A stretch of DNA of 50,767 nt from Chloroflexi bacterium OHK40 (GTDB lineage: Bacteria; Chloroflexota; Chloroflexia; Chloroflexales; Chloroflexaceae), in NCBI GenBank assembly GCA_004367505.1, contig SFCB01000060.1, positions 1 through 50,767 on the forward strand. Reading direction: 5' to 3'. Shown piece by piece: positions 3,437 to 49,262 of this stretch. The stretch's first letter is position 1. Each line of letters opens with the position of its first letter. Both the position numbers and the translations under genes were made by a program. The notes under the pieces are model-generated. The model made no database searches. It was not told the DNA's origin and saw only the letters and a program-made list of their open reading frames with translations.

Positions 3437-3450
3437 GCCTCTTCCTGACA

Positions 3451-6081: not shown

Positions 6082-6137
6082 GCTCTTTCTCGAATGCGCC
6101 TCGGCGGCGTGCATTGTGTGTATCCAGCGTGCAGGAA

Positions 6138-6303: not shown

Positions 6304-6308
6304 ACCGG

Positions 6309-8828: not shown

Positions 8829-8832
8829 GGGG

Positions 8833-11958: not shown

Positions 11959-13007
11959 GAGGCCTTTGTGCTGGCTACTGGCGTAAGCGGAATTGCCCCG
12001 CCGGCACGGTGCTTCTGTGCCGCAGGGATCGCTGGGTCGTAGAGGTGACACTTGACCATACGCCCATCGGGCACGAGATTCGTGGGTGCCACGCGTGAGC
12101 ATACATCCATCGCGAAGGGACAGCGGGTGGCGAACTTGCAGCCGGTGGCCGAGAACTCATCCAGTTCCTGGCGGGCGAGCGCCACTTTCTCCGTCCAGCG
12201 CATGCGCGGGTCTGGTTCGGGCACCGAGCTTTTCAGGATCTGGGTGTAGGGATGGAGCGGGTTGCCAAGGACTTGTTCGGCCGGGCCCAGTTCTACCACC
12301 CAGCCTCGCAGCATCACCGCAATACGGTCGGCGGCGTAATACGCAGTGGCCAGATCATGGGTAATGTAGATAACACTCACGCCCTGCTGCTGCTTCAGAT
12401 CGCGGAAGGAGTTAACGATCGCCATGCGCAGCGAGGCATCGAGCATAGAAACAGGCTCGTCGGCCACCAGCAGCGAGGGGTTCGTAGTAAGGGCGCGGGC
12501 AATCGCGGTACGCTGCATCTGGCCACCCGAGAGCTCGTTCGGGTAGCGGCCCTTGATCTCCTTCAGTGAGAGGCCAACCGTGTGCAGCGCCTGGTCGATA
12601 TGCGCATCCACCGTCGCCCTGGTGGCAGTGCCAAAGTTTAAGGCTGTTTCGTAGAGGTAGCTCTCAATCTTCTTGAGCGGGCTAAAGGCAGCGAAGGGAT
12701 CCTGGAAGATCGGCTGAACCTCTTTCATGAACCAGATGCGTCGCTCCCGGGCCGAGAGGCGTGTCATATCGCGGCCCTTGAAATGCAAGTGCCCGGCGGA
12801 AGGCACGACCTGACCGAGGATCATCCGGGCCAGGGTTGTCTTGCCGCTCCCGCTCTCGCCCACCACGGCCAGAATCTCGGGGCGGTCGGCTGCGATCGCG
12901 AGCGTCACATCGTCTACGGCCACGAAGCGAGAGGTGGCCAGCCCACGGCGAACGGTGAAGACTCTGGAGAGCTGTTCGAGTTTCAGCAGCGCCTCGGAGG
13001 TCGTCAT
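11955..13007 (-). CDS. Opp/Dpp-type ABC transporter ATP-binding protein (DppF/OppF-like)
   Basis: This 350-aa ATPase powers import through the two permeases encoded upstream. Walker A GESGSGKTT is at residues 50-58, the signature LSGGQ at 159-163 and Walker B LLVADEP at 179-185. The C-terminal extension has the Cys-containing motif CKFATRCPFAMDVC of oligopeptide/dipeptide transporter ATPases (oligo_HPY region). The start and stop overlap both neighbours by four bases (ATGA), so the transporter and hydrolase genes form one coupled operon. Although the family is named for peptides, many members import oligosaccharides. Beside four putative rhamnosidases, a rhamnose-containing oligosaccharide is the likelier cargo. 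Confidence 0.93.
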   Translation of the reverse strand: MTTSEALLKLEQLSRVFTVRRGLATSRFVAVDDVTLAIAADRPEILAVVGESGSGKTTLARMILGQVVPSAGHLHFKGRDMTRLSARERRIWFMKEVQPIFQDPFAAFSPLKKIESYLYETALNFGTATRATVDAHIDQALHTVGLSLKEIKGRYPNELSGGQMQRTAIARALTTNPSLLVADEPVSMLDASLRMAIVNSFRDLKQQQGVSVIYITHDLATAYYAADRIAVMLRGWVVELGPAEQVLGNPLHPYTQILKSSVPEPDPRMRWTEKVALARQELDEFSATGCKFATRCPFAMDVCSRVAPTNLVPDGRMVKCHLYDPAIPAAQKHRAGGAIPLTPVASTKAS

Positions 13008-14119
13008 CGTATCGCTCCTTCCGGGCCGCCAGCCGACCGAGCACCGCCGGGTGATGGTCGCTGGGGCGTGAGCTGCGTGTCGGTGGCCAGTGGGCGAGGT
13101 TCAGCATTTGCAAGGCGTGCGGCAATCCGGCCCATACGCTCCTCGTTTATGAGCCAGCAAGCCACACGGTGGTTGGGGCCTACCTGCTCGATCAGAGGCA
13201 CCTCGGTTTTGCATACCTCCATCGCGTAGGGGCAACGGGGGTGGAAACGGCAACCGCCGGGTGGGTTGTCGAGGGCCGGAGGGCGACCGGGGATGCTCAC
13301 CCGCTCGGAGCGATCATCAATCTTTGGCAGCGAGCGGATGAGGTGCTGGGTGTAGGGGTGGCGGGGTTGGGCGAAGATCGTAGGCGTGTCGGCCTCCTCC
13401 ATCAACTGGCCGGCGTAGAGCACCGCCACGCGGTCGGTGAGATTGGCATGCACGCCCATGTCGTGAGTTACCACAACCATGGTATTACCTGCGCGCTCGC
13501 GGATCTCCTGGAGCAGCTGGATCACTCCGCGCTGTACCACCACATCGAGGGCCGTGGTGGGCTCGTCGGCCACGATCAGGCGTGGCGAAAGGATCGTCGC
13601 TAGCGCGATCGTGACCCGCTGGCGCATGCCGCCAGAGAGCTGATGCGGAAAGGATCCGAGTACTTTGTCGGGCAGCCCGAGCTCGACGAGGTAGGCTCGC
13701 ACCCGCTCGTCGATCTCGCGCCTGGGGGCGCGCACATGGGCGCCGATGAAATCGCGGAAGGTATCGCGGATGCGGCGCACCGGGTTCAGCACGTGCATCG
13801 AGCCCTGCGGCACGTAGGAGAGCTCTTTCCAGCGCATGGCCCGCAGCTCGGCCTGGCTGAGTGAGGCCATGTCCACCGGTTCACCCTCGAAGTTGTAGGT
13901 GACCGAGCCACCTACGATCGTCAGCGGGGGGGTGAGCATGCCGAGTAGCACCTTGAGCAGGGTTGACTTGCCGCAGCCCGACTCGCCCGCGATGCCGTAG
14001 ATCTCATTCTGGCGGATGGCGATCGACAGCCCATCCACCGCCTTCACCGTGCGTCGCACACCATAGGCTTCCGTAATGTAGTAAGCGCGCAGATCGTTAA
14101 TATTGGCGACGATATGCAT
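13004..14119 (-). CDS. Opp/Dpp-type ABC transporter ATP-binding protein (DppD/OppD-like)
   Basis: This 371-aa protein is the partner ATPase of the importer. Walker A GESGCGKST is at residues 45-53, LSGGMRQRVTIALA at 161-174 and Walker B IVADEPTTALD at 182-192. The C-terminal Cys motif GCRFHPRCPYAMEVC follows. The ATG at 14119 shares its A with the TGA stop of the permease gene (TGATG), and its own stop overlaps the next ATPase start (ATGA). The longer frame reaching 14437 only runs antiparallel-free inside the permease gene and was rejected. Two distinct ATPases are usual for this transporter class. Confidence 0.93.
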   Translation of the reverse strand: MHIVANINDLRAYYITEAYGVRRTVKAVDGLSIAIRQNEIYGIAGESGCGKSTLLKVLLGMLTPPLTIVGGSVTYNFEGEPVDMASLSQAELRAMRWKELSYVPQGSMHVLNPVRRIRDTFRDFIGAHVRAPRREIDERVRAYLVELGLPDKVLGSFPHQLSGGMRQRVTIALATILSPRLIVADEPTTALDVVVQRGVIQLLQEIRERAGNTMVVVTHDMGVHANLTDRVAVLYAGQLMEEADTPTIFAQPRHPYTQHLIRSLPKIDDRSERVSIPGRPPALDNPPGGCRFHPRCPYAMEVCKTEVPLIEQVGPNHRVACWLINEERMGRIAARLANAEPRPLATDTQLTPQRPSPGGARSAGGPEGAIR

Positions 14120-14988
14120 CAGGCACCTGTCCCTTTCGCTGCCAGGTTCTTCAGGCGCGTTCGCGGGTCGAGGAAGACTGCGAGGGCGCTGGAGACCAGG
14201 TAGAAGGCTACCACGACCACGATCGTGATCCCGATCGGTGCAAGCAGCCACCACCAGCGGTTGGCCAGCAGGGCCTGGTAGTAGTTGGCCCAGTAGATCA
14301 TGGTGCCAATCGTGGGCAGCGAGACATTCGAGAGGCCGAGAATGGCGAGGGTGATCTCCAGGCCGATCGCGTAGAGAAATCCGCTCACCATGTCGGCGAG
14401 CGTGAAGGGGATGAGAAATGGAAAGTGCTCGTGCCAAATGATCTTCAAGCGGCCCATGCCCGAGAAGATGGCTGTCTGGGTGAACTCCTCCTCGCGCAGA
14501 GCCAGGATCTGAGCGCGGTAGCGCTTGGATGGCCAGGCCCAGTCAAGCAGGCCGAGCAGCACCCCGAGTTGCACCATGCCCAGGTTACCCTGGAGGATCG
14601 TGGCGATCAGAATGATCAGCGGCAGTACCGGGATGACAATAAATGTATCAGTAAAAGCTGAGAGCACCCGGTCGGTGAGGCCGCCCACATATCCCGCAAA
14701 GGTGCCAATCAGCACTGCGATCGCTCGGCTCACCAGCACCGCAATCCCGGCGATGATCAGCGTGTTGCGGATGGCAAAGGTCGCCTGCCAGAAGACATCC
14801 TGGCCGAGGGCAGTGGTGCCAAAGACATACTCCCGCGAGGGGGGGCGGTTGTTTGGCACCTCGCGCCGGGCGAACTGGTCGTAGGGTGAGACAAAAGAGA
14901 GTGCTACCAGCACCAGGATCAGCAGGAGCATCCCCGCTCCCCAGCGAAAGGAGGGGCTGAACCTGAACATGTCACGGATGACTGTCAT
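14119..14988 (-). CDS. ABC transporter permease (DppC/OppC-like)
   Basis: This 289-aa inner-membrane protein has about six hydrophobic segments. The first is MLLLILVLVALSFVS near the N-terminus, followed by the periplasmic-loop motif FGTTALGQDVFWQ that is typical of DppC-type permeases. The cytoplasmic coupling region lies around the EEEFTQTAIFSGM stretch, with the ATPase-contacting loop after it. The ATG at 14988 (MTVIRDMF) was chosen because the reading frame upstream of it is not membrane-like and overlaps a degenerate region. The ribosome site is weak (AAGG about nine bases upstream). A 217-nt gap with a regulator remnant separates it from the partner permease gene, which is unusual in these operons. 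Confidence 0.92.
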   Translation of the reverse strand: MTVIRDMFRFSPSFRWGAGMLLLILVLVALSFVSPYDQFARREVPNNRPPSREYVFGTTALGQDVFWQATFAIRNTLIIAGIAVLVSRAIAVLIGTFAGYVGGLTDRVLSAFTDTFIVIPVLPLIILIATILQGNLGMVQLGVLLGLLDWAWPSKRYRAQILALREEEFTQTAIFSGMGRLKIIWHEHFPFLIPFTLADMVSGFLYAIGLEITLAILGLSNVSLPTIGTMIYWANYYQALLANRWWWLLAPIGITIVVVVAFYLVSSALAVFLDPRTRLKNLAAKGTGA

Positions 14989-35157: not shown

Positions 35158-36444
35158 TCAGCTGCCTGGCTCGTGCGGCTCATCGGTGGGCGGGTCGGAC
35201 GACTCTTCCTCGTGCTCCCCCTCCTCGGGCGTTGCCTCCGTTTTGTCCCCCAGATTTGCGCTTGCCCCCTTCTGCTCCTCGCCGGACGGCGCCTCAGGCG
35301 TCTGCCCCGGCTTGCCGAACAGATCGGCCACCTTGGTCGTCGCATCGCGCTGGGTCTCGGGGAGCACGTGGCCGTAGGTATTCATGGTCAGGCTGATCTG
35401 GCTGTGGCCGAGGATCTCCATGACCACCCGCGGGTGGACGCCCTGGGCGATCAGGAAGGTCGCGCAGCTGTGGCGCAGGTCGTGGAAGCGCGTCGTCAGC
35501 GGCAGGCCTGCGCGCTTGAGCGCCAGCTTGAAATGGCGGTGCAGGTTGCTCGGCTCCATCGGCGTGCCGCGCTCGGCGGGGAAGACGAGGTCGTGCTCCT
35601 TCCACGCCGCGCCCCAGACCGCGCGCTCTTCGGCCTGCCGGCGCTGGTGCTCGGCGAGCAGCTCGACCAGCACATCGGGCAGGAGTAGGGTGCGCGCCCC
35701 CGCCCGCGTCTTCGGCTCCGAGCGCTCCAGCTTGCCCTGCACGCGCTGGAGCGCGCCAGATACGCGCAGCGTCTTCTTGTTGAAGTCGATGTCGGCCCAC
35801 AGCAGGCCAAGCACTTCGCCACGGCGCAGGCCAAGTGAGAGCGCGATGCGGTAGAGCGCCTCCAGCCGGTGACCGGCGACGGCCACAAGCAAGCGCCGCG
35901 CTTCTGCCTCGGAAAGCGGCGTGATCACCCTCGCCCTGCTCGTGGGCGGGTCGGTGGCCAGGACGACGTTGCGGGTGACGAGCTCCCACTTCACCGCCCG
36001 GTTGAGCGCACGCTGGAGCACCGCTCGGGCGTACTGGGTGGTGCGGGCGCCGCTGGCAGCTGCGAGGCTGTTGATCATGCTCTGGACGTGGGCGGCGGTG
36101 AGCTTCGTCAGCTGATGATGGCCGAGGCGCGGCTTGAGGTGGAGCCGGATGGTGTCGGCGTAGCTGCGGTAGGTGCGGGCGCGCCGGTGGGGCTTGATCA
36201 CCTCGTCCAGCCAGCGGTCGAGGAACTCGCCCACGGTGAGGCGCTCGGGGTCGACGTTGACGCCCTGCTGCTGCTGGTGGAGCAGCTGCTTGAGCTTCTC
36301 GGCCACCTCCTTGCGCGAGCTGCCGTAGATGAACTTGCGCTTGCGCTTGCCGTTGACCATGCCGAGGTCAATGATCGCGCACCAGGAGCCGTCAGCGCGC
36401 TGATAAATGCTGCCTTCACCGGCGCCACGTCGTCGCTTACTCAT
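35158..36444 (-). CDS. Tyrosine recombinase / integrase
   Basis: This 428-aa integrase probably moves the element. An N-terminal AP2-like arm-binding segment (GSIYQRADGSWCAIIDLG) is followed by a SAM-like core-binding domain and the catalytic domain. The catalytic residues are Arg207 (SLGLRRGEV), His321-x-x-Arg324 (HDLRHSCATF), His347 (LGHSQ) and Tyr357 (MNTYGHV). The C-terminal 50 residues are acidic and Pro-rich, probably disordered. The ATG at 36444 has GGAGGG upstream. All catalytic residues are intact, so it may be active. An excisionase-like gene lies 138 nt upstream. Confidence 0.95.
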   Translation of the reverse strand: MSKRRRGAGEGSIYQRADGSWCAIIDLGMVNGKRKRKFIYGSSRKEVAEKLKQLLHQQQQGVNVDPERLTVGEFLDRWLDEVIKPHRRARTYRSYADTIRLHLKPRLGHHQLTKLTAAHVQSMINSLAAASGARTTQYARAVLQRALNRAVKWELVTRNVVLATDPPTSRARVITPLSEAEARRLLVAVAGHRLEALYRIALSLGLRRGEVLGLLWADIDFNKKTLRVSGALQRVQGKLERSEPKTRAGARTLLLPDVLVELLAEHQRRQAEERAVWGAAWKEHDLVFPAERGTPMEPSNLHRHFKLALKRAGLPLTTRFHDLRHSCATFLIAQGVHPRVVMEILGHSQISLTMNTYGHVLPETQRDATTKVADLFGKPGQTPEAPSGEEQKGASANLGDKTEATPEEGEHEEESSDPPTDEPHEPGS

Positions 36445-36972: not shown

Positions 36973-37638
36973 CTAGCCTGGAAAGCCGAGGCCGCGCTCG
37001 CGAAGCGAAACATAGCGCCCGCCCGCTATTACAAGGTGGTCGAGACACTCGCAGTCAAGGAGTTTCCCCGCCTCAACAATCTGGCGCGTGACCAGAATAT
37101 CCTCCGGCGATGGAGTAGGGTCGCTCGTCGGATGATTATGCGCCACGATGATACTGGTCGCGTTCACCCGCAGCGCCTCCTTGAACACCTCCCCCACCCT
37201 GATCATGGCCGTGTTGACCGAGCCGCGGTAGACCTTCGATACTTTGATCAGGCGATTTTTTGTATCAAGGGCGGCGACCCAGAGTTCTTCCTGGTCGAGG
37301 GCCATCATCTCGATCATAAACAGCTTGGCGACGTCGGCGGGCGACTTGACCTGAAAGCGGTCGTGGTAGCCGGCGATTGCCAGGCGCCGGCCGATCTCCA
37401 GCGCGGCCTTGAGGCTCGCGGCCTTGCGCGGTGTGCCGATGCTGGCGGCGACGGCGCGAATGTCGGCGCGGAGCAGGCCGACCCAGCCCTGGTAGTCGCG
37501 CAGGCACTGCGTGCAGATCTCGAGGTCGTGCTGGCCGGAGACCAGAGCGAGCAGCTCGGCGTCGCTGAGCACGTCGGGGCCGTGGCGGGTGATGCGGCTA
37601 GCTGGCCGCTCGTCGGCGGGAAGCTCGCGGATACGCAT
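36973..37638 (-). CDS. radC: RadC family protein (JAB/MPN domain)
   Basis: This 221-aa protein has an N-terminal helix-hairpin region (SDAELLALVSGQ) and a C-terminal JAB/MPN domain with the metalloprotease-like motif AHNHPTSDPTPSPED near residues 163-177. Mobile-element RadC proteins are common and are linked to DNA metabolism or anti-restriction, but their activity is unsettled. The Zn-binding His-x-His, Ser and Asp are all present. The ATG at 37638 shares a base with the stop of the small gene upstream (TGATG). A longer frame to 37965 was rejected because it reads through that gene. Confidence 0.9.
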   Translation of the reverse strand: MRIRELPADERPASRITRHGPDVLSDAELLALVSGQHDLEICTQCLRDYQGWVGLLRADIRAVAASIGTPRKAASLKAALEIGRRLAIAGYHDRFQVKSPADVAKLFMIEMMALDQEELWVAALDTKNRLIKVSKVYRGSVNTAMIRVGEVFKEALRVNATSIIVAHNHPTSDPTPSPEDILVTRQIVEAGKLLDCECLDHLVIAGGRYVSLRERGLGFPG

Positions 37639-37850
37639 CAGCGGCCCCCTTCGTTCATCCGGTTGACGAGCCTGACCACCCGCAGCGCCAGTATGAGCCG
37701 GTGGCCCTGGTGGATGAGCTGTGCGACCCGCTCGGCCGCCGAAGGGTTGGACAACACCAGGTCGGCGTACTGCCGCTCCAGATGCTGATGCGACTGCTGC
37801 CCGCCGCGCCGGCCGTGCTCGACGGCGTTCTCGCTGGTAAACCGTGCCAT
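37638..37850 (-). CDS. Small hypothetical protein (GRRGG motif)
   Basis: This 70-aa protein begins MARFTSENAVEHGRRGGQQS, which resembles the short basic N-termini of many small phage and element proteins with a KGG/RGG-like motif. A helical, Leu/Val-rich C-terminal part follows. The ATG at 37850 follows GGGAGGG. It overlaps the radC start by one base, so the two are translated together. I cannot assign a function. Confidence 0.65.
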   Translation of the reverse strand: MARFTSENAVEHGRRGGQQSHQHLERQYADLVLSNPSAAERVAQLIHQGHRLILALRVVRLVNRMNEGGR

Positions 37851-37960
37851 CTGTGTGCCCTCCCGGTTCGTGTCGAATTGGGGGCACACCACACCAGCCG
37901 CCGGGCGGCTGGTAAGCACTGGGCGAGCGCGCAGCGAAACAGGCTGCCGCAGAGGCAGGC

Positions 37961-37992
37961 AACAAAACAGCCCCAGCAGGCGGCTGAGGCTG
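37961..37992 (-). terminator. Rho-independent terminator of the Rpn unit
   Basis: On the minus strand the stem CAGCC-t-CAGC / GCTG-g-GGCTG (one mismatch, 5-nt loop) is followed directly by TTTTGTT. It lies 32 nt after the stop of the last C-terminal-module ORF. The rest of the gap to 37851 holds nothing I can name. Confidence 0.75.
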
Positions 37993-38023: not shown

Positions 38024-38269
38024 CTACGCTTCTGAGGCGTGGTCTTGCTGGTCAAGCCAGGCGAGCAGATCGGACTGGGAGGTGAAATCGAGCAACGCCT
38101 CGCTAAGTGTCAGGAGCGTGTCGGGAGCAAGCACCGCTACACGCACCTGTAGCTTGTTGGCGAGCGGTCCTATTTTTCGGTTCAACAGGCGCAGCACCAG
38201 CGCCTGGCGCTCTTCAAGCCGGCCTTCCGCCCGACCGATCTCCTCAAAACTGGTGACGAAGTGGGTCAC
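38024..38269 (-). CDS. Stand-alone Rpn C-terminal domain, copy 3 (DUF4351-like)
   Basis: This 81-aa protein is homologous to the last 77 residues of the Rpn nuclease encoded at 38496-39440. It shares FVTSFEEIGRAEG, VLRLLNRKIGPL, TLSEALLDF and AWLDQQD, with a four-residue insert (RLEERQAL region). The start is GTG and overlaps the stop of copy 2 as GTGA, so it depends on coupling to the upstream ORF; its own ribosome site is weak. It has no nuclease core. By analogy with intragenic C-terminal Rpn fragments in E. coli, it may bind and restrain the nuclease. A decayed duplicate is the alternative, but the intact frame argues against that. Confidence 0.8.
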   Translation of the reverse strand: MTHFVTSFEEIGRAEGRLEERQALVLRLLNRKIGPLANKLQVRVAVLAPDTLLTLSEALLDFTSQSDLLAWLDQQDHASEA

Positions 38270-38499
38270 GATGCTTGCCTGGCGTCTTGCTGGTCGAGCC
38301 AGGCTCGCAAGTCCGCCTGCTCCGTAAAGTCGAGCAGGGCCTCGCTGAGAGAAAGCAGCATTTCAGGGGAAAGTGCGGTGACACGGGTCCGAAGCTCATG
38401 GGTAAGAGGGCCAACTTTGCGGTTCAGCAGGCGCAGAACGATCTCGCGTTGTCCTTCCGCTCTGCCGAGCTTCTCGAAGCTGGTCACGAAGCGGGTCAT
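38266..38499 (-). CDS. Stand-alone Rpn C-terminal domain, copy 2 (DUF4351-like)
   Basis: This 77-aa protein is exactly as long as the C-terminal module of the upstream Rpn gene and aligns without gaps, with about two thirds of residues identical by eye: FVTSFEKLGRAEGQREIVLR, LNRK, SEALLDF, WLDQQDA. The ATG at 38499 overlaps the Rpn stop as ATGA and has AAGGA just upstream. It ends in a GTGA overlap with copy 3. The longer frame reaching 39042 runs through the Rpn gene out of frame and is a shadow. Probable role: binding partner or antitoxin of the Rpn nuclease (inference). Confidence 0.82.
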   Translation of the reverse strand: MTRFVTSFEKLGRAEGQREIVLRLLNRKVGPLTHELRTRVTALSPEMLLSLSEALLDFTEQADLRAWLDQQDARQAS

Positions 38500-38729
38500 G
38501 TTCCTTGCCCAGCGTCTTGCTGGTCGAGCCAGACGCTCAGGTCGCTTTGTGTAGCGAAGTCGAGCAGCGCCTCGCTGAGTGCCAAAAGGGCTTCGGGAAC
38601 AAGCACCACCACACGCGCTTGAAGTCCTTCGGGCAGCTGGCCAAGCTTTCGGTTCAACTGACGCAGAACGATCTCGCGTTGTCCTTCCGCTCGGCCAATC
38701 TCCTCGAAACTGGTCACAAAGGTGTCCAT
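38496..38729 (-). CDS. Intragenic ORF: Rpn C-terminal fragment with its own ribosome site
   Basis: Within the rpn frame, ATG at 38729 (MDTFVTSFEE) is preceded by GGAGGT at 38737-38742 with seven bases between, a better site than most gene starts here. Initiation there would yield a 77-aa protein equal in length and start position to stand-alone copies 2 and 3 (MTRFVTSFEK, MTHFVTSFEE). For E. coli Rpn genes, intragenic C-terminal products that neutralise the full-length nuclease have been described. The sequence supports the same arrangement here; expression is inferred. Confidence 0.65.
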   Translation of the reverse strand: MDTFVTSFEEIGRAEGQREIVLRQLNRKLGQLPEGLQARVVVLVPEALLALSEALLDFATQSDLSVWLDQQDAGQGT

Positions 38730-39440
38730 ACCCGTTACCTCCAGTTCCACTTGCCGCATTGTAGCACGCGCCTCCTGAGCAAGGGTAGGGTCCAGGCGCA
38801 GGAGATGCTCCATCAGCCGCAGCAGGGCGCGCACGTCCGGTGCGGTATACCCCTGCACCAGCAACGCGCGGTAGCGGGCAGCCTTGCGGAGCACGCGCTC
38901 CGTTGGCTTGCCACGCGTCTCCTGGGCGTCGCGGTGGAGCAGTGCCAGCGTCGCGAAGGGGTTTCGCGTCTGCTTGAGCCAGGCTGCGTCCAGGTCGAGG
39001 AGCTTCACCGTGGGGAAGCGCAGGGCCAGCTCGCACCCCCACAGCGCATAGCCGAAGCGGTCAGGGCGCCAGCCGGCCTCCTCGTCGCCGAGTACGGCCA
39101 GGCTGACCACAGGAACGCGGTCACGATCGTACAGTCGCGCGTGGTACCTGAACATGCGCTCCGAAAAGGCGACATCCCGCTGGGACTGGACCTCGATGTG
39201 TACAAAGACCCAGGCCGGGGTGCCGTCGAGGCGCCGAACCTGGACCAGCTTGTCGACGCGCTGCTTGCCTTCCTGGTCCTCGGGGGCGATCTGCTGGAGC
39301 TCGGTGTCGCGGAAAGCGACGGGCTCGCTCCAGTCGATGGCGGCGAAGGCGTCCGGGAAGAAGAGCTCAAGGAAGGGCGCAAAGTACTGCTCCAGGGCGT
39401 ACTTCCACGCGCCGTCGAAGTCCGAGGCTGGCTGCTCCAT
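38496..39440 (-). CDS. Rpn family recombination-promoting nuclease / PD-(D/E)XK nuclease
   Basis: This 314-aa protein has an N-terminal PD-(D/E)XK-like nuclease core with VDKLVQVRRLDG and WVFVHIEVQSQRD (the E-x-Q element), a helical middle part and a C-terminal DUF4351-like domain from residue 238. Rpn proteins are DNA endonucleases often annotated as transposases, and in E. coli several act as anti-phage toxins. The ATG at 39440 follows GGAGG. An internal ATG (codon 238) has a perfect GGAGGT seven bases upstream. Its own promoter with a LexA-like palindrome lies at 39492-39520. Two further copies of the C-terminal domain follow, each overlapping by four bases. Confidence 0.88.
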   Translation of the reverse strand: MEQPASDFDGAWKYALEQYFAPFLELFFPDAFAAIDWSEPVAFRDTELQQIAPEDQEGKQRVDKLVQVRRLDGTPAWVFVHIEVQSQRDVAFSERMFRYHARLYDRDRVPVVSLAVLGDEEAGWRPDRFGYALWGCELALRFPTVKLLDLDAAWLKQTRNPFATLALLHRDAQETRGKPTERVLRKAARYRALLVQGYTAPDVRALLRLMEHLLRLDPTLAQEARATMRQVELEVTGMDTFVTSFEEIGRAEGQREIVLRQLNRKLGQLPEGLQARVVVLVPEALLALSEALLDFATQSDLSVWLDQQDAGQGT

Positions 39441-39530: not shown

Positions 39531-40100
39531 CTACATTCGGTTCTTCTCCGGCTGCTCCACCTCGCTGAACAGCAGCAGTTGGACAGGCTTCACGCTGGCG
39601 GACGCGGCTTCTCCCGGGCAACCAGGTGTGGGAAGTTGTCGATCATCGGCGGGCAGATCGTCCCGCACGGCCTGCGCCTTTTGCACCATGCGCCCCGCCG
39701 CGACGACCTGGAGCCAGCGCACGCCGCGCAGGAAGCAGTGATACCAGCCGTGCTCCGTAATGCTACCGCTGCCCAGTCGTTGAGTGCGCCGGCCGAAGCG
39801 CTGGATCTCGCCGGCGTCGCCAACCCGGAAGTAGCCACCGCGCCTGGTTTGGACGTAGAGCCAGGGCTGCAGCGGCCGGCGCGCGCCACCGTTGTGCGGC
39901 AGGATGTAGGCGACGCGGGTGGCCTTGAGCAGCTCGACTTCGCGCCGGAGCTTGCGGCGTTCACCTACGGTCATCCCCAGGTCGGCGAATGGCGAGGCGA
40001 AGCGGTAGAGCAGGATGTCGGCGGCGACGAGCAGCTCCCAGACCGTTCCCTCTGCCCAGGTGCGTCTGCGCAGCTCCGGTGGGATGCGACGACGGGCCAT
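39531..40100 (-). CDS. Hypothetical protein with C-terminal QLLLF (beta-clamp-like) motif
   Basis: This 189-aa protein has no family I recognise. The N-terminal part is basic (MARRRIPPELRRRTW) and is followed by hydrophobic helices (VWELLVAADILLYRF). The centre is Arg/Gly/Tyr-rich (RRGGYFRVGDAGEIQRFGRR). Near the C-terminus KPVQLLLFSEVEQ contains QLLLF, close to the sliding-clamp-binding consensus QL(S/D)LF. The ATG at 40100 has a GGAG/AAAGGG region upstream. It lies between the methylase-helicase gene (83 nt upstream) and the Rpn promoter, so it is probably the last gene of the large operon and may act on replicating DNA. Confidence 0.65.
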   Translation of the reverse strand: MARRRIPPELRRRTWAEGTVWELLVAADILLYRFASPFADLGMTVGERRKLRREVELLKATRVAYILPHNGGARRPLQPWLYVQTRRGGYFRVGDAGEIQRFGRRTQRLGSGSITEHGWYHCFLRGVRWLQVVAAGRMVQKAQAVRDDLPADDRQLPTPGCPGEAASASVKPVQLLLFSEVEQPEKNRM

Positions 40101-40183
40101 GACAGTGCCCTTTCTCCGCAGCACGAGGGGCACCAGCACCGTCTGGAGCCCCCTGCGTGAATCATCGAGCCGTCGGACGGCGC

Positions 40184-41276
40184 TCAAAAAAGCGACAGCT
40201 GGCTCACCTCGACCTCGTCGGCAGGAGCGGCGGGAACGGGCGGCTTCACAGCCCGCCGCTGGGTTGGCACGTCGCCGAACTGGGCACGGCCCGTGCTCGG
40301 CGTGCGGCATCGCCCCACCTCAGCTGCTAGCCTCGGCGCGGCTTCCGCTTCGGGCAGCGCTCCGACGAGCGGCTCGGCCAGGAGCGGGGTACGAACAGCC
40401 TGCCGCTCAACCTCGGCGGCCATCCAGGTGAGCGAGGCCGGCGCCGGCGGGATGATCGTCGCCCACTCGTTCCAACCCTCCTCGGCCCGCTCCTGCTGAG
40501 CGAGCGTGAGCAGCAGGTCGGCCAGCGACGGCTCGTCCTCTGCTGTCGCGCGGGCTGGCTGAGCGGCTCCTTCCGGCCCCGTCGCGTGTGCCCCGCCGGA
40601 CTCGGGGTCGGCCTGGGCCTCGGCGGCGGCGAAGGCGGCGTTGATCGCCTGGAGCTCGCCCATCGCCGCGTCGTAGGTCGCCTGCCCATCCCACTCCTCC
40701 AGCCGAACGAGCTCGCGGTCGATGGTGGCGATGCGCTCGTGCGCTTCAGCGATGCGCCTGTGCAGCCGCTCCAAGATGCTGGGAATGTCGCTCACGGTGT
40801 GGCCGACGCTCTGCCAGACGCCGGTGTCGGTGGAGGCGTTCACCGTGTCGAGGGTGGCACCGCCGGGGAGCGCGAGGCTCAGGTCGGCCGCGAACACGGC
40901 GTGGGCCTGGACGACCAGGTCGAGACCCCGGTAGCGGGCGACCACGCCCCGAAGCCGCTGGCGCTGGAAGGCCGCCGCGCTCTGGTAGCCGTGCACGAGC
41001 CGCCGTACGGCTGAACCCGCTTCGGCCCGCGCCGTCATTGTTTGGCCTGGTTCCGCGCCTATCGTCGCTGCTACCTCGGCGCAGAACGGCTCGTGCGGAT
41101 GGGCAACGACGAGCGCCTCGGCCCGCTCCCATTGGGCGCGTCGGCCCTCGACCCGGCGGATCTCCTCCTCGGTGAAGTGGCGCTCCAGCTGAAGGTTGCG
41201 GCGGGTGTCGAGCCAGACCCCGCGCACCCGCTCAAGGCGGGCGACCTCGGCCTCCAGCTGCACCTTGCGAACGATC
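40184..41276 (-). pseudogene. 3' fragment of the methylase-helicase gene (cut off by IS)
   Basis: This is the C-terminal part of the giant gene that starts at 47056. It is separated from the rest by the IS at 41277-42771. The ORF as it stands opens at 41263 (MQLEAEVARLERVRG), but this ATG-like codon is created near the IS edge rather than being a native start. Removing the IS and one target copy joins GNPQIV directly to RKVQLEAEVARLE in frame. The fragment is helical, with coiled-coil-like stretches and an acidic Ala-rich linker. It ends in SQLSLF at the very C-terminus, the consensus beta-clamp-binding pentapeptide. The fragment alone contains no catalytic motif. Confidence 0.85.
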
Positions 41277-42771
41277 TGTATGGCTTTCTTACATCGGCAC
41301 CTGATGATGTTGCTACATCGTGCCCCTTTCTGTCAGCGAAGTGTCAACCGTTTCCAATGGCAGTCGAAGCTGTTGCCCAATCGGCCGCCCAGCTACGGCT
41401 TGACCGCGGGCTGCCTGCGTCATCACGTCGAGATAGGCTGAGAGCGGCATGGGGTCGCCGAGTAACCCGCGAATTGGCAGCTGCTTGATCGCTTCTTCCC
41501 GATACTCCACACTGAACGCACGGCTCGGCGCATCGACGCATAGGCTTACGTATCTCCCCGCCCAATGGCGGTCGATGTAATACAACCGGTTATCGACCGT
41601 GACCGTGCCGTTCGTGCGCACTTTGCGCACATAGCGTTCGCCGTGGAGGACGTCCAACCAGCGATCCGGGTCCACCGTTGCTGGCAAAGCCGGGAGGACA
41701 GGCAGCTCCGGAAAGGCGACCGCCGGCGGTTGGTTGCCACAGCTGAGCGCCTGGTTGGGCCGCTCCTGGTTGTAATGCTGCCGGAAGGTCGCGGTCACCG
41801 TGTGTGCGCTGGCGAGGTCGCTGGGCCGCTGCACGCGCAGACACTCCTGCTCAAACGTCCGATGATAGCGCTCAACGAACGCATTCTTGTCTGGGCGCTG
41901 CGGCGGGCAGATCGTGACCTGGATGCCGAGGCAGTGCAGAACCCGCAGCAACGGTGCGGGAAAGTCGGCCTGATGGCCTCCGCCGACAAAGCGGGGGTCG
42001 CGATCCACGGTGATCTGAGCAGGCAGGCCATTAGTCCGCAGGGTCTGCACCACCGCCGTCAGCGTAGTTTCGGCCGTAAAGTCGGGACGCACCTGGGCAT
42101 CAACAAGCAGGGACGTGCCAACATCGACGATATCCAAGACTTCCACCACGTGCTGCTGCTTGCCGTCCGGGTCAGCAGGCACCGTCGAGACATCCTTGAA
42201 GTCGAGTTGCCAGGAGCTCATGGGTGCCGGTCGTTCCACGGGGTGGTGGACACGCTGGCCGCGCGGTGGAATGCGTCCGGCCGCCTGAAGGATCAGCCAG
42301 ATGGTGCGCGAGGAGTGGGGGAGGCGGAGGCCACTCGCCTGGAGGAGCGGGTCACGGGCGAGGTAGTAGAGGATGGCTTTGGGCCCTGGGACGCGCTGGA
42401 GATGCTCCGGTGGGGCATCACGGATGGCCAGTACCTGGTCGATGACCTGCGGGTCAAGTTTGGGCGGGGGATGCAGACGTGCCCGTGAGCGGCTGTGCAG
42501 GGCCTGGTCCTCCTCTGGTGCGGCGCGAATACGTTTGCGCCACTTCTTCACCCAACTCTCGGAGCGCTTGAGTGCGGCGGCAAGGTCGGCCGTGGTCCAG
42601 GTTGGCTGCGTGCGCAACAGGATGCGGAGTTGTGTCCGATCTGCGAACCACTCGGCGTCGGTGCCCATAGGTCCACCTCCTGTCCTCGTGACGAAAACCG
42701 TTGACACTGTTCCGTCAGAAACCGACACGATGATACTACCCGATCGGGTGCCGATGTAAGAAAGCCATACA
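41277..42771 (-). mobile_element. Complete insertion sequence, IS481/IS3-like (1,495 bp)
   Basis: Both ends carry the same 25-bp perfect terminal inverted repeat, beginning TGTATGGCTTTC and continuing TTACATCGGCACC. The termini are TG...CA. A 5-bp direct repeat CGATC flanks it (41272-41276 and 42772-42776), the expected target duplication. Imperfect sub-terminal repeats (CATCGTG... and GTGTCAAC... blocks) lie inside each end. One transposase gene fills it. It interrupts the methylase-helicase gene at about codon 1427. The intact ends and transposase suggest a recent insertion. Confidence 0.93.
41313..42668 (-). CDS. DDE transposase with integrase core (IS481-like)
   Basis: This 451-aa transposase starts with a helix-turn-helix (TTADLAAALKRSESWVKKWR), followed by an rve integrase core. 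The DDE residues are seen in SSWQLDFKDVSTVP (Asp), QITVDRDPRFVGGG (Asp) and DKNAFVERYHRTFEQECLR (Glu). A C-terminal beta domain (VRTNGTVTVDNRLYYIDRHW) follows. The ATG at 42668 has GGAGGTG upstream; an earlier frame start at 42728 lacks one. The gene is intact. IS481 is favoured by domain order, but a related IS3-superfamily group is possible. Confidence 0.9.
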   Translation of the reverse strand: MGTDAEWFADRTQLRILLRTQPTWTTADLAAALKRSESWVKKWRKRIRAAPEEDQALHSRSRARLHPPPKLDPQVIDQVLAIRDAPPEHLQRVPGPKAILYYLARDPLLQASGLRLPHSSRTIWLILQAAGRIPPRGQRVHHPVERPAPMSSWQLDFKDVSTVPADPDGKQQHVVEVLDIVDVGTSLLVDAQVRPDFTAETTLTAVVQTLRTNGLPAQITVDRDPRFVGGGHQADFPAPLLRVLHCLGIQVTICPPQRPDKNAFVERYHRTFEQECLRVQRPSDLASAHTVTATFRQHYNQERPNQALSCGNQPPAVAFPELPVLPALPATVDPDRWLDVLHGERYVRKVRTNGTVTVDNRLYYIDRHWAGRYVSLCVDAPSRAFSVEYREEAIKQLPIRGLLGDPMPLSAYLDVMTQAARGQAVAGRPIGQQLRLPLETVDTSLTERGTM

Positions 42772-44476
42772 CGATCTGCGGGTTGCCGCTGGCGATCGCC
42801 TTGATCTCGGCGGCCGACAGCACCACGTCGGACGTATCCTCGACGGTGCGAGCGGTGATCTCACCGGCCATCGCCTGCTCGATGAAGCGGGCTTTGGACT
42901 CCACGAGCTGGTAGAGGTAGGCGTCGAAGGAGCCTTCGGTAAGGTAGCTGAAGATATAGCAGGTTGGCCACTGGTTGCCCTGGCGCAGGATGCGGCCGTG
43001 GCGCTGCTCAAGGTCGCCAGGGCGCCAGGGGCAGTCCAGGTTGTGGAGCGCGATGAGCCGCTGCTGGACGTTCATCCCGACCGACATCTTGCCGGTGGAG
43101 CCGAGCAGTACACGGACGCGGCCCTCGTTCACTGCGGCGAAGAGCGCGTCGCGCTGGGCCTTGGTGGCGCAATCGTGGATGAAGGCGATCTCGTGGCGGG
43201 CAACCCCCGAGGCGACCAGGCCATCACGGATCTCGTAGTAGACGAAGTTGCTCAGCCATCGCTCCTCGGCGGTCTCGACCTCCTGCGCTCCCTCAGAGGC
43301 CTCGCCCTGCGGCTCAGCCAACGTGATGCGAGTCGGCGGCTCTTCCGCGCCCCGCCCGCTGCCCTTGGGGGTGGCCAAGTCGCAGAAGACCAGCTGCGTG
43401 CCACGGAGCGGCACGTAGGTGTGGTAGAGCTGGGCGACGTTGGCGACAAGTGCGCCGATCTTACTCCGCCGGGTTCGCGGGGCCTTCGGTACGACCAGGC
43501 GAATGTCGAGCGCGGCTTTGTGCCCGTCACCGACCACGCGCAGCATATTGTCGACGCTCGGGTCAACCCGGCCGCTCCGCACATCGTCGGCGCGGGCGAC
43601 AAGGGACTGGACGTAGCGCTTCAGGGCGGCCGAAGGCGGCACCACGACCGGGATGACCTTGCCGGTGACCAGCTCCGGCTCGGGCAGGCCCATCTGCGCC
43701 TTGGTGCGCAGGTTAAGCACCTGCCGCCACAGCGCCGACATCTCCGGCAGGTTCACGAAGGTTGCCAGCCGCGTGTTCATCCTGAAGCCGCCGCCGTCCG
43801 GCTTCATCTCAAACGCCATCTTTGGCTGGGCGTAGAGCGACACCCACTCGTCGAAGTGGTGGATGCCGACGGCCTCCAGCTGCTGCTCCTGGAGGTACAG
43901 CTGCATAACATACGCCTCACCGATCGTGTTCATAATCGGCGTCGCTGTCAGGAAGACGACCTTCTTCTGGCGCTGGAGCAGGTCCCAGGTCTTGATGCGC
44001 ATGTCGAGCGCGCGCTGGCTGTGGGCCGAGGGCAGGCCAGCGATGTTGGTCAGCCGGGTTGGGACGAACAGGTTCTTGTAGGCATGAGCCTCGTCGACGA
44101 TGAGCATGTCGAGGCCGAGCTCCTCCCAGGCGATGGTACGGGCGCTGTCGCGGGCGATGCTGTCGGCCATTGATTGCAGCCGCTCCTCCAGCCGCTTGAT
44201 CGCCCGCTCGATCTGCTTCAAGGAGCGCTTCTCGTCGCTTGATGTGGCGGTGGCCCGCTGCTCCTCGAGGTAGGCCCGCAGGCGGTCGGTCTCCTTGTCG
44301 CGAAACGCGGTCACGAGGTCGGCGCTGAGCGGCAGCATGGTGAAACTGGAGTGCGCGATGACGACCAGATCCCAGTCGCCGGTGGCGATGCGGCTCAGCA
44401 CGATACCCCGGCGCTGCCTGGCGAAGTCCTCGGGGGCCATCGCCAACACTTTGATGCCGGGGTAGAGCCGTCGGGC
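42772..44476 (-). pseudogene. Middle fragment of the methylase-helicase gene (helicase domain)
   Basis: This segment lies between the amber codon at 44477-44479 and the IS. It carries helicase motifs: DEAH-type LDMLIVDEAHAYKNL, FLTATPIMN and motif VI QRHGRILRQGNQ, which identify an SNF2-like superfamily 2 helicase. A possible restart GTG at 44449 (MLAMAPEDFARQR) would give a protein lacking the Walker A motif, and it would run into the IS, ending at 42548. Codons before and after the amber are in one frame and conserved in character (QWAN-stop-ARRLYPGIKV). As it stands, no complete helicase can be made from this piece. Confidence 0.85.
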
Positions 44477-47056
44477 CTAGTTGGCCCACTGGCCCACGAG
44501 ATTGTTCGGCACGACGGCGAGCGCTTTGGTGCAGAGGCCGAGGCGGCGGGCCTCGACCGCGGCCGCGATCGCGGTAAAGGTCTTGCCGCCGCCGACGGCG
44601 AAGCCGAGCAGCGTGCTGGGTCGCTGGAGAATCTGCCAGACCGCGCCCTTCTGGTAGTCGGCCAGATCACCACCGCGTAGGAGCGAGGCATTGATGCCAG
44701 GGAAGGAGAGGTGGCTCCCGTCGTACACCCGCATGCGGTGGCTGTTAAAGCGCTCGTTATACAGCCGGCAGAGCTCGTCGGCGCGGGCGGGGTCGTCCCA
44801 GATCCAGCGCTGGAAGGCCTGATTGATCTCCTGCTGCTTCTCCTGCGCAGCGACCGTCTCGGCCGGGTTGAGCACGCGCCGCTCCTGGTCGCCGACGGTG
44901 ATCAGGTCGAACACCGTGACCGGCACTCCGCGTAGGGAGGCTTGGAGGATGTCGATCGCATCCGCCCGCTTCGTGCCCCAGCGGGTGGTCGCTTCGACGG
45001 CGAACGCGCCCTGCTTGCCGGGGTCGGTGAGTGCCCATTCGCCCAGCGACATGCGGTACGCCGCCTCGCCGACCCAGGCAGGGAGCAGGCTTTTGATGAA
45101 GGCGGTGACGATCGGGCCAGGGAGCCAGAAGGCGTTCAGGTTGACGATGATGTCACGCGGGCCGAGCGGTTCGGGCTGGACGGCTTGGAGCGACGCGACG
45201 TTCCGCTCAAACGCCGGGTCGCGCTCGGCCCAGGCGCGGGCGTCACGGAGCTTGGCGACGACGTCACCGCTGAGGTAGATGTCGGCGAGCTCGTAGTTGT
45301 TCGTGCCGGGGAGGCGGTAGACCCGCTCGCCCAGCGCCTCAACCACCGCCTCAGACGACTGCCCAGCCAACGTGGCGATGTAGCCGATGTCGAGGCCACC
45401 GCGCTCGTCGAGGCAGCGCAGCAGCGCCTCGGTCGGATTCAGCGTGCCGGGGAGAGACTGCTGGTGGGGGCGCAGGGTGCGCTCACGGAAGATGCGCTCG
45501 CGGTCGGCGAGCCAGCGCCCGCTCGGCGTGCGGCGCGGGTTGCGCTCCAGGGCGAGCAGGAACTGCAGCTCGGGCAGGTCGCCAAAGAGCCGCTGGTTGC
45601 GCGGGTTATGGATGACGCCGTATTGCCAGACGAAGCCTTGGTAGACCCGATTGAGCTCGGCTCGGGCCGTGTCCACATCGGGCTCGTCGTTCAACTCGGC
45701 GCGGATGAGCGCCTTGGCGGCGTTGTAGATGCTCACCAGGCCCGCAGCGCGTTCCTGGGCGACACCGCCAAGCGCGGGGATGGCGATCTGCGCGGCCCGG
45801 CGCTCGTGGAGGGGCGACGGCGCGGCTGTTACAGGAGCCACCGCGATCTCGTCCGGCGTGAAGGGGACGATCACGCCTGAGGGCAGCAGCGTGGCGAGGC
45901 GCGCCTGAAGTGTTGTGGCCAGGTCGCCGGCGGGCGGCTGCACCTGAAGCCACAGGCTGTTGTCACTGGTGACGACGACCGGCTGACCGATCACGCGCTC
46001 AGGCTGATCGAGCCAGCATTGGTTGACGGCCAGGCGGGCCGCGGCGAGCTCCTCGGGGTCCTTGATCTCGCGGGTGTAACGCGAGCCGACGGTCATCGAG
46101 CGGTGGTTGGCGGAACGCGGGTAGTCTGCCTCGGCGATCGTGAGCCAGCCAGGCTGTTCGGCCTCGGGCCGCGATTTCTTCTGAAGGATGAGCAGGTCGG
46201 TGGCGCTCTCCGAGCCGCTGATGCGGCGGAACACCCCGTTGGGCAAGCGGAAGGCACCCAGGAGCGTGGCCTGCTCGGCCAGGAAGGAACGCACGGCGCG
46301 GGTCTGCTTGTCGAGCGTGCCCCAGCTGGTAAGGAAGACGACCAGGCCGCCGGGGCGCACCAGGCGCAGGGCCTTGGCGATGAAGTAGTCATGAATTTGC
46401 CCCCGAAGGGCTGCGGGGACGTGGGGATCGTGGACACTCATCTCGCCAAACGGGACGTTGGAGATCGCCAGGTCGAAGCCGTTGGAGGGCAGGTCGACGC
46501 GCTCGAAGCCCACGCCGCCGTGCAGCGTGATGTCGGGATGGATGTGGCCGAGGATGCGTGCGGTGACCGGGTCGAGCTCGACGGCGGTGATCTCGGCCCG
46601 TGCCCGCAGCTCGGGCGGCATCGCGGAGATGAAGTGGCCGACGCCGGCGGCCGGCTCGATGATGCACGGGCGCTCCAGGCTGCCGAGGCCGAGCTGCTCG
46701 ACGGCCTGCCAGATCGCGGCGACGATATCGAGCGGCGTGTAGAAGGCGGTCAGCGCGGCGACACGGAGGTGCCGGGCGTCCTCGGAGGAAAGGAATGCGG
46801 CGTAGCTGTCGTGGAGCAGGTAGCGGCCAGCGGCGTGATCGAAGCGGAAGAGCCGGTTCAGCAGGGCCAACTCGCCAAACGCGCTGTAGTGCGCCAGGAT
46901 CAGCCGCTCCCCGTCGGTCGCGGGGCGGCCCTCGGCCTCCAGCTGGTGGACGAGCGTGAGCGCGGCAAGATTCTTCTGGAAGCGATCACCAGGCCCGGTG
47001 AAGCACAGGGCCTCGGGCGTGAGGTGGAAGGCCGACGGGCAGGACAGTATCGCCAC
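44477..47056 (-). pseudogene. 5' part of a giant N6-adenine methylase / SNF2-like helicase gene, ended by an amber codon
   Basis: The GTG start at 47056 follows GAGGAG. The open part encodes 859 aa. An N-terminal methyltransferase-like domain has AVELDPVTARILGHIHP and motif IV-like LAISNVPFGEMSVHDPHVP near residue 200. The helicase start has GFAVGGGKTFTAIAAA (Walker A-like GGGKT, about residue 822). Then TAG at 44477-44479 replaces what is probably GAG, after VVPNNLVGQWAN. Without the IS and with the amber as sense, the gene would encode about 1,790 aa. Similar methylase-helicase giants occur on phages and integrative elements (DarB-like, anti-restriction). The truncated protein might retain methylase function. 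Confidence 0.85.
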
Positions 47057-47722: not shown

Positions 47723-48628
47723 CTACTCGTCGAGCAGCGAGGCGCCGTAGGCCTGGATGACGGGGTCGTCGCGCAGCTTGTCCAGTGCGCCGACGATCAC
47801 CTGTCGCACGCGCTCGCGTGTGAGGCCGGCCTGCTGGCCGATCACGTCGAGCGTCAGCTTCTGCCCGGTGCCGAAGCCGAAGTGGGCGTGCACAAACTGC
47901 CGCTCGCGCTCGGTGAGCAGCCGCGCCATCGCCTCGCGGACGTCCGCCTGGAAGGCGCCTTCCAACGCGTGGCCCTCGGGGTCGAAGCGCGTGTCAGGCA
48001 GCAGCTCGCCGACCTCGCTGCTATCCGCGTCGACACCCATCCGCACGTTGAGCGAGCCGGCATCCTGGAGGTCGGCTGTTACTGAGGCCGTTTTCGCCCG
48101 TGACCAACCGAGGGCGGCGCCGAGCTCCTCCGGCGTGGGCTCGCGGCCGAGCTGCTGGGTCAGCCGCGAGGAGACCCGCCGCTTCACCGCGAGGCGCTCG
48201 TGGAGGTGGATGGGCAGCGCAATGAGCCGGCCCTCGTCCATGATGCCGCGCGTGATCGCCTGCCGCACCCACCAGGTCGCGTAGGTCGAGAGCTTGTTGG
48301 CCTTGCGCGGGTCGAACCTGTCGATGGCCTGAAGCAGGCCGATCGTGCCGAAGCCGATCAGGTCTTCGAGTGAGAGGTGCTCGCCGGCGACGTGCTGGTA
48401 GCGCCGGGCGAGGTTGACCACCAACCGCAGGTTGTGACGGGCCAGGGTGGCCCGCGCTTCCTCGCCCGCAGCGACCTGGTGAGCAGCAGCGGGCTCGTTG
48501 GCTAGGAGCGTCGCGCGAGCGGCAAACCCTGCGCGCATTGTGGCGATCAGGGCGGCCTCCACCTCGTGCGAGAGGACAGGGTGACTGGTCAGGGCGGCGA
48601 GCGGGTTGGTGAAGGGGTCAGGCGACAT
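47723..48628 (-). CDS. Element-encoded sigma-70 family RNA polymerase sigma factor
   Basis: This 301-aa protein has a sigma region 1.2-like N-terminus and region 2 (NLRLVVNLARRYQHVAGEHL, DLIGFGTIGLLQAIDRFDPR, STYATWWVRQAITRGI). Region 3 includes LPIHLHERLAVKRRVSSRLT, and region 4 includes LTLDVIGQQAGLTRERVRQV. It is close to group 2/SigA-type factors rather than ECF. The ATG at 48628 has GGAGG upstream and overlaps the nuclease-like gene by 11 bases. Carriage of a private sigma factor suggests the element reads its own promoters with host polymerase, possibly the operon running to lower coordinates. Confidence 0.92.
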   Translation of the reverse strand: MSPDPFTNPLAALTSHPVLSHEVEAALIATMRAGFAARATLLANEPAAAHQVAAGEEARATLARHNLRLVVNLARRYQHVAGEHLSLEDLIGFGTIGLLQAIDRFDPRKANKLSTYATWWVRQAITRGIMDEGRLIALPIHLHERLAVKRRVSSRLTQQLGREPTPEELGAALGWSRAKTASVTADLQDAGSLNVRMGVDADSSEVGELLPDTRFDPEGHALEGAFQADVREAMARLLTERERQFVHAHFGFGTGQKLTLDVIGQQAGLTRERVRQVIVGALDKLRDDPVIQAYGASLLDE

Positions 48629-49262
48629 AGCGGGCCTCCAGGAGCTGCTCGAAGAGCCGGTCGGCCTCGCTCTGGAAAACCTGCTCGTTCGTGAGGGTGA
48701 GCACGGACAATCCCTGCGCCTCGATAGTGACCAGGCGGGCGGCGTCGCGCTCAGCGGTGAGGGCGTGAATGCCGCCGACAACCTCGATCACCAGCGCGTG
48801 GGCGGGCAGCAGTAGGTCGCAGGCGTAGCTGAGCACGCGGGCCTCGATAATGGCGTCGGTGGAGGCCCATTGCCAGTCCGCAGGCGCGGCCCGGTACGCC
48901 GTCCACTCCCAGGCACCACTTAGATCAGCGTGGAGGGTGAGGCCTGCCTCGAGCGCGAGCCAGTGGAGCAGTTCCTCGGCGGGGGTAGGGTTGGCAATGC
49001 GCCAGCGTCGGCGCCGCTCGTGGGCGGCGGTGAGGATGGCCTGCATCTTCGCCGCCCCGTGCTTCTGGACGGCCCGCCGGTAGAGCGAGCGCTGGTAGGT
49101 GCAGTAGCCACTATCACCGAGGGCCGCCCGAAGCTGAGCCTGGCGCGCAACGCCGCCGGCACGGGCAAGGGCCTGCTGGTAGCGCTTATAGCCACTCTCC
49201 CCGAGCACAGCCTTGATCTGTGCCTGACGCGCGCGCCCTCCGGCGCTCTGCCGGGCGCTCAC
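48618..49262 (-). CDS. DUF559/VSR-like endonuclease-fold protein with N-terminal repeats
   Basis: This 214-aa protein has two parts. The N-terminus holds two similar 25-residue units (ARQAQIKAVLGESGYKRYQQ and ARQAQLRAALGDSGYCTYQR). The C-terminus resembles DUF559/very-short-patch-repair endonuclease folds: YACDLLLPAHALVIEVVGGI, then ERDAARLVTIEAQGLSVLTL. Those domains carry a PD-(D/E)XK site (Asp, Glu-x-Val here) and are common in mobile DNA. The start is GTG at 49262 and overlaps the preceding gene as GTGA. Its end overlaps the sigma factor gene. Its position suggests a joint regulatory or DNA-processing role. Catalysis is not shown. Confidence 0.75.
   Translation of the reverse strand: MSARQSAGGRARQAQIKAVLGESGYKRYQQALARAGGVARQAQLRAALGDSGYCTYQRSLYRRAVQKHGAAKMQAILTAAHERRRRWRIANPTPAEELLHWLALEAGLTLHADLSGAWEWTAYRAAPADWQWASTDAIIEARVLSYACDLLLPAHALVIEVVGGIHALTAERDAARLVTIEAQGLSVLTLTNEQVFQSEADRLFEQLLEARYVA

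Follow-up and report, generated by a model that had tools for sequence, protein, structure and literature searches.

A predicted clamp-binding motif on a DarB-like methylase-helicase and on its small neighbour in Chloroflexota mobile elements

RESULTS

Genes of the element and the broken methylase-helicase gene

The window, by which we mean the whole stretch of DNA that was analysed, covers 50,767 nucleotides of Chloroflexi bacterium OHK40 (assembly GCA_004367505.1, contig SFCB01000060.1, positions 1 to 50,767). The features of the mobile element and its surroundings that matter here are the following.

35158..36444, minus strand: tyrosine recombinase (integrase) of the element
36973..37965, minus strand: RadC-family protein; of the 8 loci matching the window, 7 align here and the eighth ends before the gene
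38496..39440, minus strand: Rpn-like/DUF4351 protein of the element
39534..40100 plus stop, minus strand: 189-aa protein; intact ORF with a conserved core (about residues 1-137) and a variable tail predicted to be disordered
39567..39581, minus strand: QLLLF, predicted clamp-binding motif; residues 174-178 of the 189-aa protein, in its disordered tail
40187..41277, minus strand: C-terminal piece of the methylase-helicase; predicted folded helical/beta domain, then a disordered tail
41278..42770, minus strand: insertion sequence, IS481-like, within the methylase-helicase gene; 1493 bp
41313..42728, minus strand: DDE transposase ORF of the insertion (rve_3); QLRLPL, of the hexameric clamp-motif type, near its C-terminus
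42778..44476, minus strand: helicase piece up to the insertion; DEAH, TATP, GMN, QRxGRxxRQGN; Helicase_C; phrog_10089, E 1.2e-156
44477..44479, minus strand: in-frame TAG splitting the gene; the copy on contig C199 reads through without a stop
44480..47056, minus strand: N-terminal piece of the DarB-like methylase-helicase; 859 codons; TP...NVPF methylase, Walker A GGGKT; phrog_10089, E 7.3e-178
47723..48781, minus strand: RpoD-like sigma factor, upstream of the methylase-helicase; aligns in 5 loci
48618..49262, minus strand: DUF559 protein; aligns in 4 loci

The large gene is broken twice, by the in-frame TAG and by the insertion sequence of about 1.5 kb, and the window copy is an inactivated pseudogene. 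A frameshift at 44477 was the first idea for the upstream break and was ruled out, the break being the TAG itself. The ORF of the helicase piece runs on into the insertion, which is flanked by the direct repeat AGATCGT (41271-41277 and 42771-42777) and has inverted ends of 77 nt (78%). Its transposase scores 124.1 bits against NCBIfam NF033577, below the curated cut-off of 224, and is thus IS481-like at most; its QLRLPL resembles the Hda clamp motif QLSLPL. Alignments of the window to the copies on contigs C199 and C41 and in genomes G030, G011 and G031 break off at 41278 and start again at 42770, so the insertion is absent from those copies. On the minus strand, QLSLF occupies 40187-40201, the last five codons ahead of TGA (40184-40186). 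A preliminary description of this DNA had the methylase-helicase end exactly in QLSLF; the peptide does lie right before the stop codon, but the coding region is in three pieces here, and the TAG and the insertion sequence have left QLSLF on a detached C-terminal piece.

Two further observations concern the surroundings. Between the window (38042-38721) and locus L023 (9054-9597), several overlapping alignments of 71-85% identity cluster where the Rpn-like/DUF4351 gene ends, which looks like a partial duplication of that gene. Outside the element, window positions 701-14437 hold four consecutive alpha-L-rhamnosidase-type genes, one of them under the Pfam cut-off, and genes for a peptide-type ABC transporter.

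Identity of the methylase-helicase and its intact copies

The N-terminal and middle pieces match the PHROGs family phrog_10089, 'DarB-like antirestriction' (E 7.3e-178 and 1.2e-156). Two more copies are present in the same genome, on contigs C199 and C41, as open frames of 1803 and 1804 codons; over the C-terminal piece they match the window at 76% and 66%, and they end in QLSLF and QLPLF, respectively. The C199 protein, P0005 (1789 aa), has the methylase motifs TAFYTP at 103 and NVPF at 200-203, the latter differing from the NPPF motif at its second position, and the SWI2/SNF2-type SF2 helicase motifs GGGKT, DEAH, TATP, GMN and QRHGRILRQGN. Judged by these motifs, the large gene is a methylase-helicase dyad as described in PMC5512222, with an adenine-type methylase and a C-terminal SWI2/SNF2 helicase. 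A DNMT1-type cytosine-5 methylase was considered and set aside, as adenine-type motifs and the DarB profile were found instead.

Elsewhere among DarB-like genes a recurrent split was seen. The gene is divided at one place in L123, L126, L128, L131, L094 and L070, just past ..IFCDLATPKGK, which is the start of the second helicase lobe; by eye, a hairpin lies between the halves in L126, L131 and L094, and the gene is unsplit in L124 and L125, which belong with L126 to one family. Programmed frameshifting was a first impression and was dropped; two genes are likelier, since the relative frame of the halves varies and, in some cases, inspection by eye shows a hairpin and a new start separating them. 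On the Sulfuricystis plasmid pSTJ2 (L143 2219-7274) the DarB-like match spans two annotated genes, an upstream hypothetical protein and a DEAD/DEAH box helicase; a RadC gene lies close by on the upstream side.

The motif is kept at the tail of the methylase-helicase

A clamp-type pentapeptide stands at the C-terminus, or within 16 residues of it, in 15 of the 17 members of the Chloroflexota group whose end is visible, and 11 of these 15 carry strict QLxLF. The very end reads QLSLF in the window, C199, G030:C554 and G030:C1633, QLPLF in C41, G011 and G031, and QLPLW, QMRMF and QTSMF in G003, G020 and G024. More distant relatives make up family f19, whose matched pieces show 34-41% identity to P0005: G452 has QLTLF at the very end, and in G162 (QLSLF), G485 (QFDLF), G299 (QLDLF) and G207 (QLSLF) another 12-16 residues, a basic stretch among them, come after the motif. 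The second residue is not aliphatic in G024 and G485. Replacement of Phe by Trp, as in the QLPLW of G003, weakens one known clamp motif (PMC11139829). The two misses are G028, which is degraded, and G016, whose motif-less ORF ends ..RAPIRS about 20 bases short of the contig end. Three copies were counted despite flaws, namely the broken window copy, the fragmented gene of G020 and G030:C1633, a tail fragment only. Copies whose C-terminus lies off the contig were left uncounted: G030:C804 (frame still open at the contig end, reading ..HQLQPERG), G030:C866, G016:C136, G023, G485:C133 and the N-terminal fragments of G020 and G022.

Outside this group, the pattern Q[LIVMAFT]x[LM][FLWY] was found in the last 40 residues of 0 of 34 other DarB-like proteins with a visible C-terminus, which are not independent of one another because some are close, and the hexameric motif was found in the last 300 residues of none of the 34. 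The idea that the motif is general to DarB-like proteins was ruled out on these counts. In the tree were 21 of the 34; the remainder were called outside by identity and source.

In a core tree of 37 rows the 11 labelled motif bearers require one change (support 99/99). Motif-less Chloroflexota (G237 with G286; G219 with G465) adjoin the bearer clade with support of 90/95 and 81/92, and G016 would represent one loss within it. A single gain is the simplest reading of these sequences, but not proof, because of the weaker support of those joining branches and the midpoint root. The tree contains 14 rows of unusual letter make-up, four unlabelled rows (G030, G485b, G016 and G023) and one, L155, labelled motif-less although its true C-terminus lies beyond the stretch compared; the window, G020, G028, G030:C554 and G030:C1633 are absent from the tree and were assigned by identity.

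Conservation is concentrated in the peptide. Across eight aligned C-terminal regions, with gaps scored as mismatches, the last five columns have a mean pairwise identity of 74%, the three preceding 30-column blocks 16%, 9% and 19%, and the part upstream 45%. In an AlphaFold model of the C-terminal piece, confidence holds up to about residue 222, and pLDDT falls below 50 over residues 296-360 of 363. By alignment and model, the tail of the methylase-helicase is a linear motif on a tether predicted to be disordered.

The 189-aa neighbour carries the same type of motif

The preliminary description had placed QLLLF 14 residues from the end of the 189-aa protein; its position (39567-39581) is as given there, but 11 residues (SEVEQPEKNRM), not 14, follow the motif. 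Six homologues were aligned, the window protein included, to which the others are 58-65% identical; their tails align poorly. Four have QLxLF, the tails reading QLLLF+11, QLTLF+16, QLRLF+1 and QLRLF+1, where the figure is the number of residues that follow. G031 has the hexameric form QLTLGI at the very end, and the C41 homologue stops before the tail and so lacks the motif. Conservation of the motif among homologues, a test proposed for the clamp idea at the outset, is therefore seen for both proteins, in 15 of 17 ends of the large protein and 5 of 6 homologues of the small one (one of them hexameric).

At each of the four places with a visible upstream side (window, C41, G031 and G030:C1633) the small gene directly follows the methylase-helicase, and no homologue was detected beside the methylase-helicase at C199, G011, G003 and G024. 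Clear homologues occur in 3 of the 158 genomes of the class and, in a phylum-level sample, in 2 of 400; a weak, stop-containing match in G009 (29%) was dropped from the count. Neither Pfam, NCBIfam nor PHROGs gave a family match. The AlphaFold model, built from 6 sequences, shows a folded core, with pLDDT below 50 over residues 149-189; of the five models, the best two reached a mean pLDDT of 71.9 and 67.6 and the remaining three 34-39. No PDB or viral structure matched it at E 0.001 or better, and the best VIA-align Z was 3.2.

How often would such a motif arise by chance?

The background came from 13 chosen sequences, the window plus 12 loci, which gave 419 stop-to-stop ORFs of 150 aa or longer, spurious ones included. 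QLxLF falls in the last 30 residues of 4 of these ORFs, all belonging to the methylase-helicase family or the 189-aa protein, and anywhere in 6. The looser Q[LIVM]x[LM][FL] occurs in the last 30 residues of 6 ORFs, the two extra lying outside both families, and the single hexameric form is that of the insertion's transposase. When 13 tails of 95 residues were shuffled, the per-sequence P of meeting Q[LIVMFT]x[LM][FLW] exactly at the C-terminus was 5e-5 to 8e-4, and that of meeting it anywhere in the tail was 0.006 to 0.056. Because of the latter values it is conservation, not any single occurrence, that carries the argument.

Clamp proteins of the host and a second methylase-helicase

The host encodes two DnaN proteins, on contigs C123 and C231 (L160 384-1514 and L161 2955-4106), which are 48% identical and each match all three clamp domains. 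Both end in MPM plus at most three residues, as in the clamp pocket of E. coli. The DnaE on C295 has QSSLF at residue 943 of its ORF, which we take to be about the same place as the clamp motif of E. coli DnaE; in the other DnaE-family protein of the host, on C220, the scanned stretch contains no Q-type motif. The E. coli DnaE motif is QADMF (PMC11139829). Among 82 genomes of the order, DnaN matches number two in 8, one in 69 and none in 5.

Contig C231 of the same genome (L161 2198-8183) encodes a second putative methylase-helicase, P0006 (1332 aa), directly followed by a DnaN paralogue and then by RadC. P0006 has, by eye, NPPF, a GTGKS Walker A motif and a DEFH box; it gave no Pfam match. 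Relatives of P0006 are present in 11 of the 158 genomes of the class, and tblastn relatives bear annotations as DEAD/DEAH box, SNF2-related or helicase-related proteins. The order P0006, DnaN, RadC is kept in all five Chloroflexales genomes showing the region (G000, G003, G012, G018 and G026), with RadC interrupted in G018 and P0006 and DnaN in pieces in G012; all five are among the eight genomes with two DnaN matches. A sixth Chloroflexales genome, G030, stands outside this count, having only N-terminal P0006 fragments near a contig end. At the six loci of family f3, DnaN is absent from the stretch examined in all six and RadC comes next in five. The ends of P0006-type proteins read ..VQFAFL (4), ..IQYSFVAE (own genome) and ..QFAMVL (5 f3 loci), with none such in one; they loosely resemble clamp motifs by eye, but the motif patterns used did not match them.

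DISCUSSION

A model for clamp docking

The peptides of both proteins fit the clamp-binding consensus Q-aliphatic-x-[LM]-[FL], lie in tails that modelling predicts to be disordered, and are conserved in homologues. We propose a model in which this family of elements carries a DarB-like protein, an adenine-type methylase joined to a SWI2/SNF2 translocase, with a clamp-binding motif on a disordered tail, and a small neighbour protein that carries the same type of motif on a disordered tail of its own. Both would dock on the host sliding clamp left by the replicase on newly made duplex. Docking would put the methylase-translocase on DNA that has just been synthesised, either incoming element DNA as it becomes double-stranded or newly replicated strands, and the enzyme may then mark or remodel this DNA ahead of host restriction. 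We consider it probable that both proteins dock on the clamp and are thereby placed on DNA. Besides the motifs, their conservation and their place on tails predicted to be disordered, this reading draws on their confinement to one branch of the family, on the QSSLF of a host DnaE and the ends of the two host DnaN proteins, and on the gene order that joins P0006 to its own DnaN in 5 of 5 genomes. That guided methylation of new DNA is what follows from docking is a possible outcome, to which we would give somewhat less than an even chance. The binding, the methylation activity, the antirestriction outcome and the role of the 189-aa core are steps that we infer.

The model can hold for the relatives and for the two intact copies, on C199 and C41. 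It had been suggested for the window that both proteins are tethered to the replication clamp; this does not apply to the window copy, because its methylase-helicase is a pseudogene, and it is the intact copies and the relatives that could qualify. Against docking stands the fact that DarB-like proteins outside the motif branch persist without the motif.

When would clamps be available on element DNA? During conjugative entry the incoming single strand must become double-stranded in the recipient (PMC9849209), and this second-strand synthesis could load clamps on the element. Such loading is conjecture, because the localisation of DnaN was unchanged during entry of the F plasmid (PMC9849209). 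The antirestriction mechanism of DarB itself is undefined, and plasmid-borne DNA can by itself relieve EcoKI restriction (PMC11109961). Tentatively, Chloroflexota elements may have coupled a methylase-translocase to a sliding clamp twice, once through tails on a DarB-like protein and its small partner that dock on the host clamp, and once through a private DnaN paralogue in the operon-like order methylase-helicase, DnaN, RadC; a loaded clamp would mark newly copied DNA as the landing place of the element's own modification enzyme, and the element would mark itself in step with replication.

Alternative readings of the motif

The two proteins might instead bind the clamp as competitors of its host partners, which would slow replication or repair in the host or release clamps for replication of the element, with no guided methylation or remodelling. 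The motif would fit sequestration equally well and the 189-aa protein has no recognisable enzyme domain; the peptide also ends a 1789-aa enzyme with intact methylase and helicase motifs, however, which would be an odd vehicle for a competitor, and we regard this alternative as unlikely. Rather doubtful, too, is the proposal that the C-terminal pentapeptide is another kind of signal, clamp-like by resemblance, for example a tag for a protease, or a site of contact within the methylase-helicase or with its 189-aa neighbour. Its place at the very C-terminus in all ten Chloroflexales bearers would suit such a signal, but in four of the five family f19 bearers it lies 12-16 residues inside the end, a poor fit to a tag recognised at the end. 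Moreover, the unrelated 189-aa protein has the same motif, with QLTLGI as a hexameric variant, as would be expected of the clamp consensus, which has two forms, the pentameric Q-aliphatic-x-[LM]-[FL] and a hexameric one (PMC11139829). Chance resemblance, or inheritance without function in a decaying element, has on its side the pseudogene of the window and the ease with which short motifs arise (P up to 0.056 anywhere in a shuffled tail), but it is very improbable given that QLxLF stands near the end of 0 of 415 other ORFs, is retained beside flanks only 9-19% identical, is carried by two unrelated adjacent proteins and is kept in relatives 34-41% identical. We retain docking on the clamp as the preferred reading.

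Comparison with known systems

The methylase-helicase family and the clamp motif are both already known; among the matches listed from the open-access literature, a clamp motif on a DarB-like methylase-helicase did not turn up, and the combination appears new. A close counterpart is DarB of phage P1 and the polyvalent-protein dyad (PMC5512222), likewise an adenine-type methylase with a SWI2/SNF2 translocase, borne on mobile elements and linked to the present protein by the phrog_10089 match. What sets the present proteins apart is the clamp-type peptide on their disordered C-terminal tail; each of the 34 other DarB-like proteins examined lacks one in its last 40 residues. The main text of that study (Iyer et al. 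2017) contains no word starting with 'clamp', and that of a 2024 review of beta-clamp partners (PMC11139829) none starting with 'methyl'.

Use of the host clamp by mobile-element proteins has precedents. Clamp-binding transposases, mostly with a C-terminal QLxLF-type motif, and TnsE bind the beta clamp (PMC4549789, PMC9690074). The likeness to these systems (PMC4549789, PMC9690074) lies in mobile-element proteins using the host clamp. The clamp users described there serve transposition, whereas the cargo here would consist of a methylase-translocase together with a small protein. Individual peptides also have parallels in unrelated proteins: QLTLGI of the G031 homologue of the 189-aa protein may be compared with QLVLGL of E. 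coli Pol IV, a C-terminal hexameric form, and QLRLPL of the insertion transposase with QLSLPL of E. coli Hda (PMC11139829). The eukaryotic pair DNMT1-PCNA (PMC9690074) would work alike, a sliding clamp bringing a DNA methylase to newly replicated DNA, although methylase class, clamp and peptide are all different and no homology is claimed.

What would a clamp tether mean? For one branch of the DarB-like methylase-helicases, it would be a specific, testable answer to how they reach their DNA. The DnaN paralogue beside the second methylase-helicase gives an independent handle on the idea of clamp coupling. If the model is true, a sliding clamp delivers a methylase to new DNA in bacteria too, and mobile elements pirate clamps for more than transposition.
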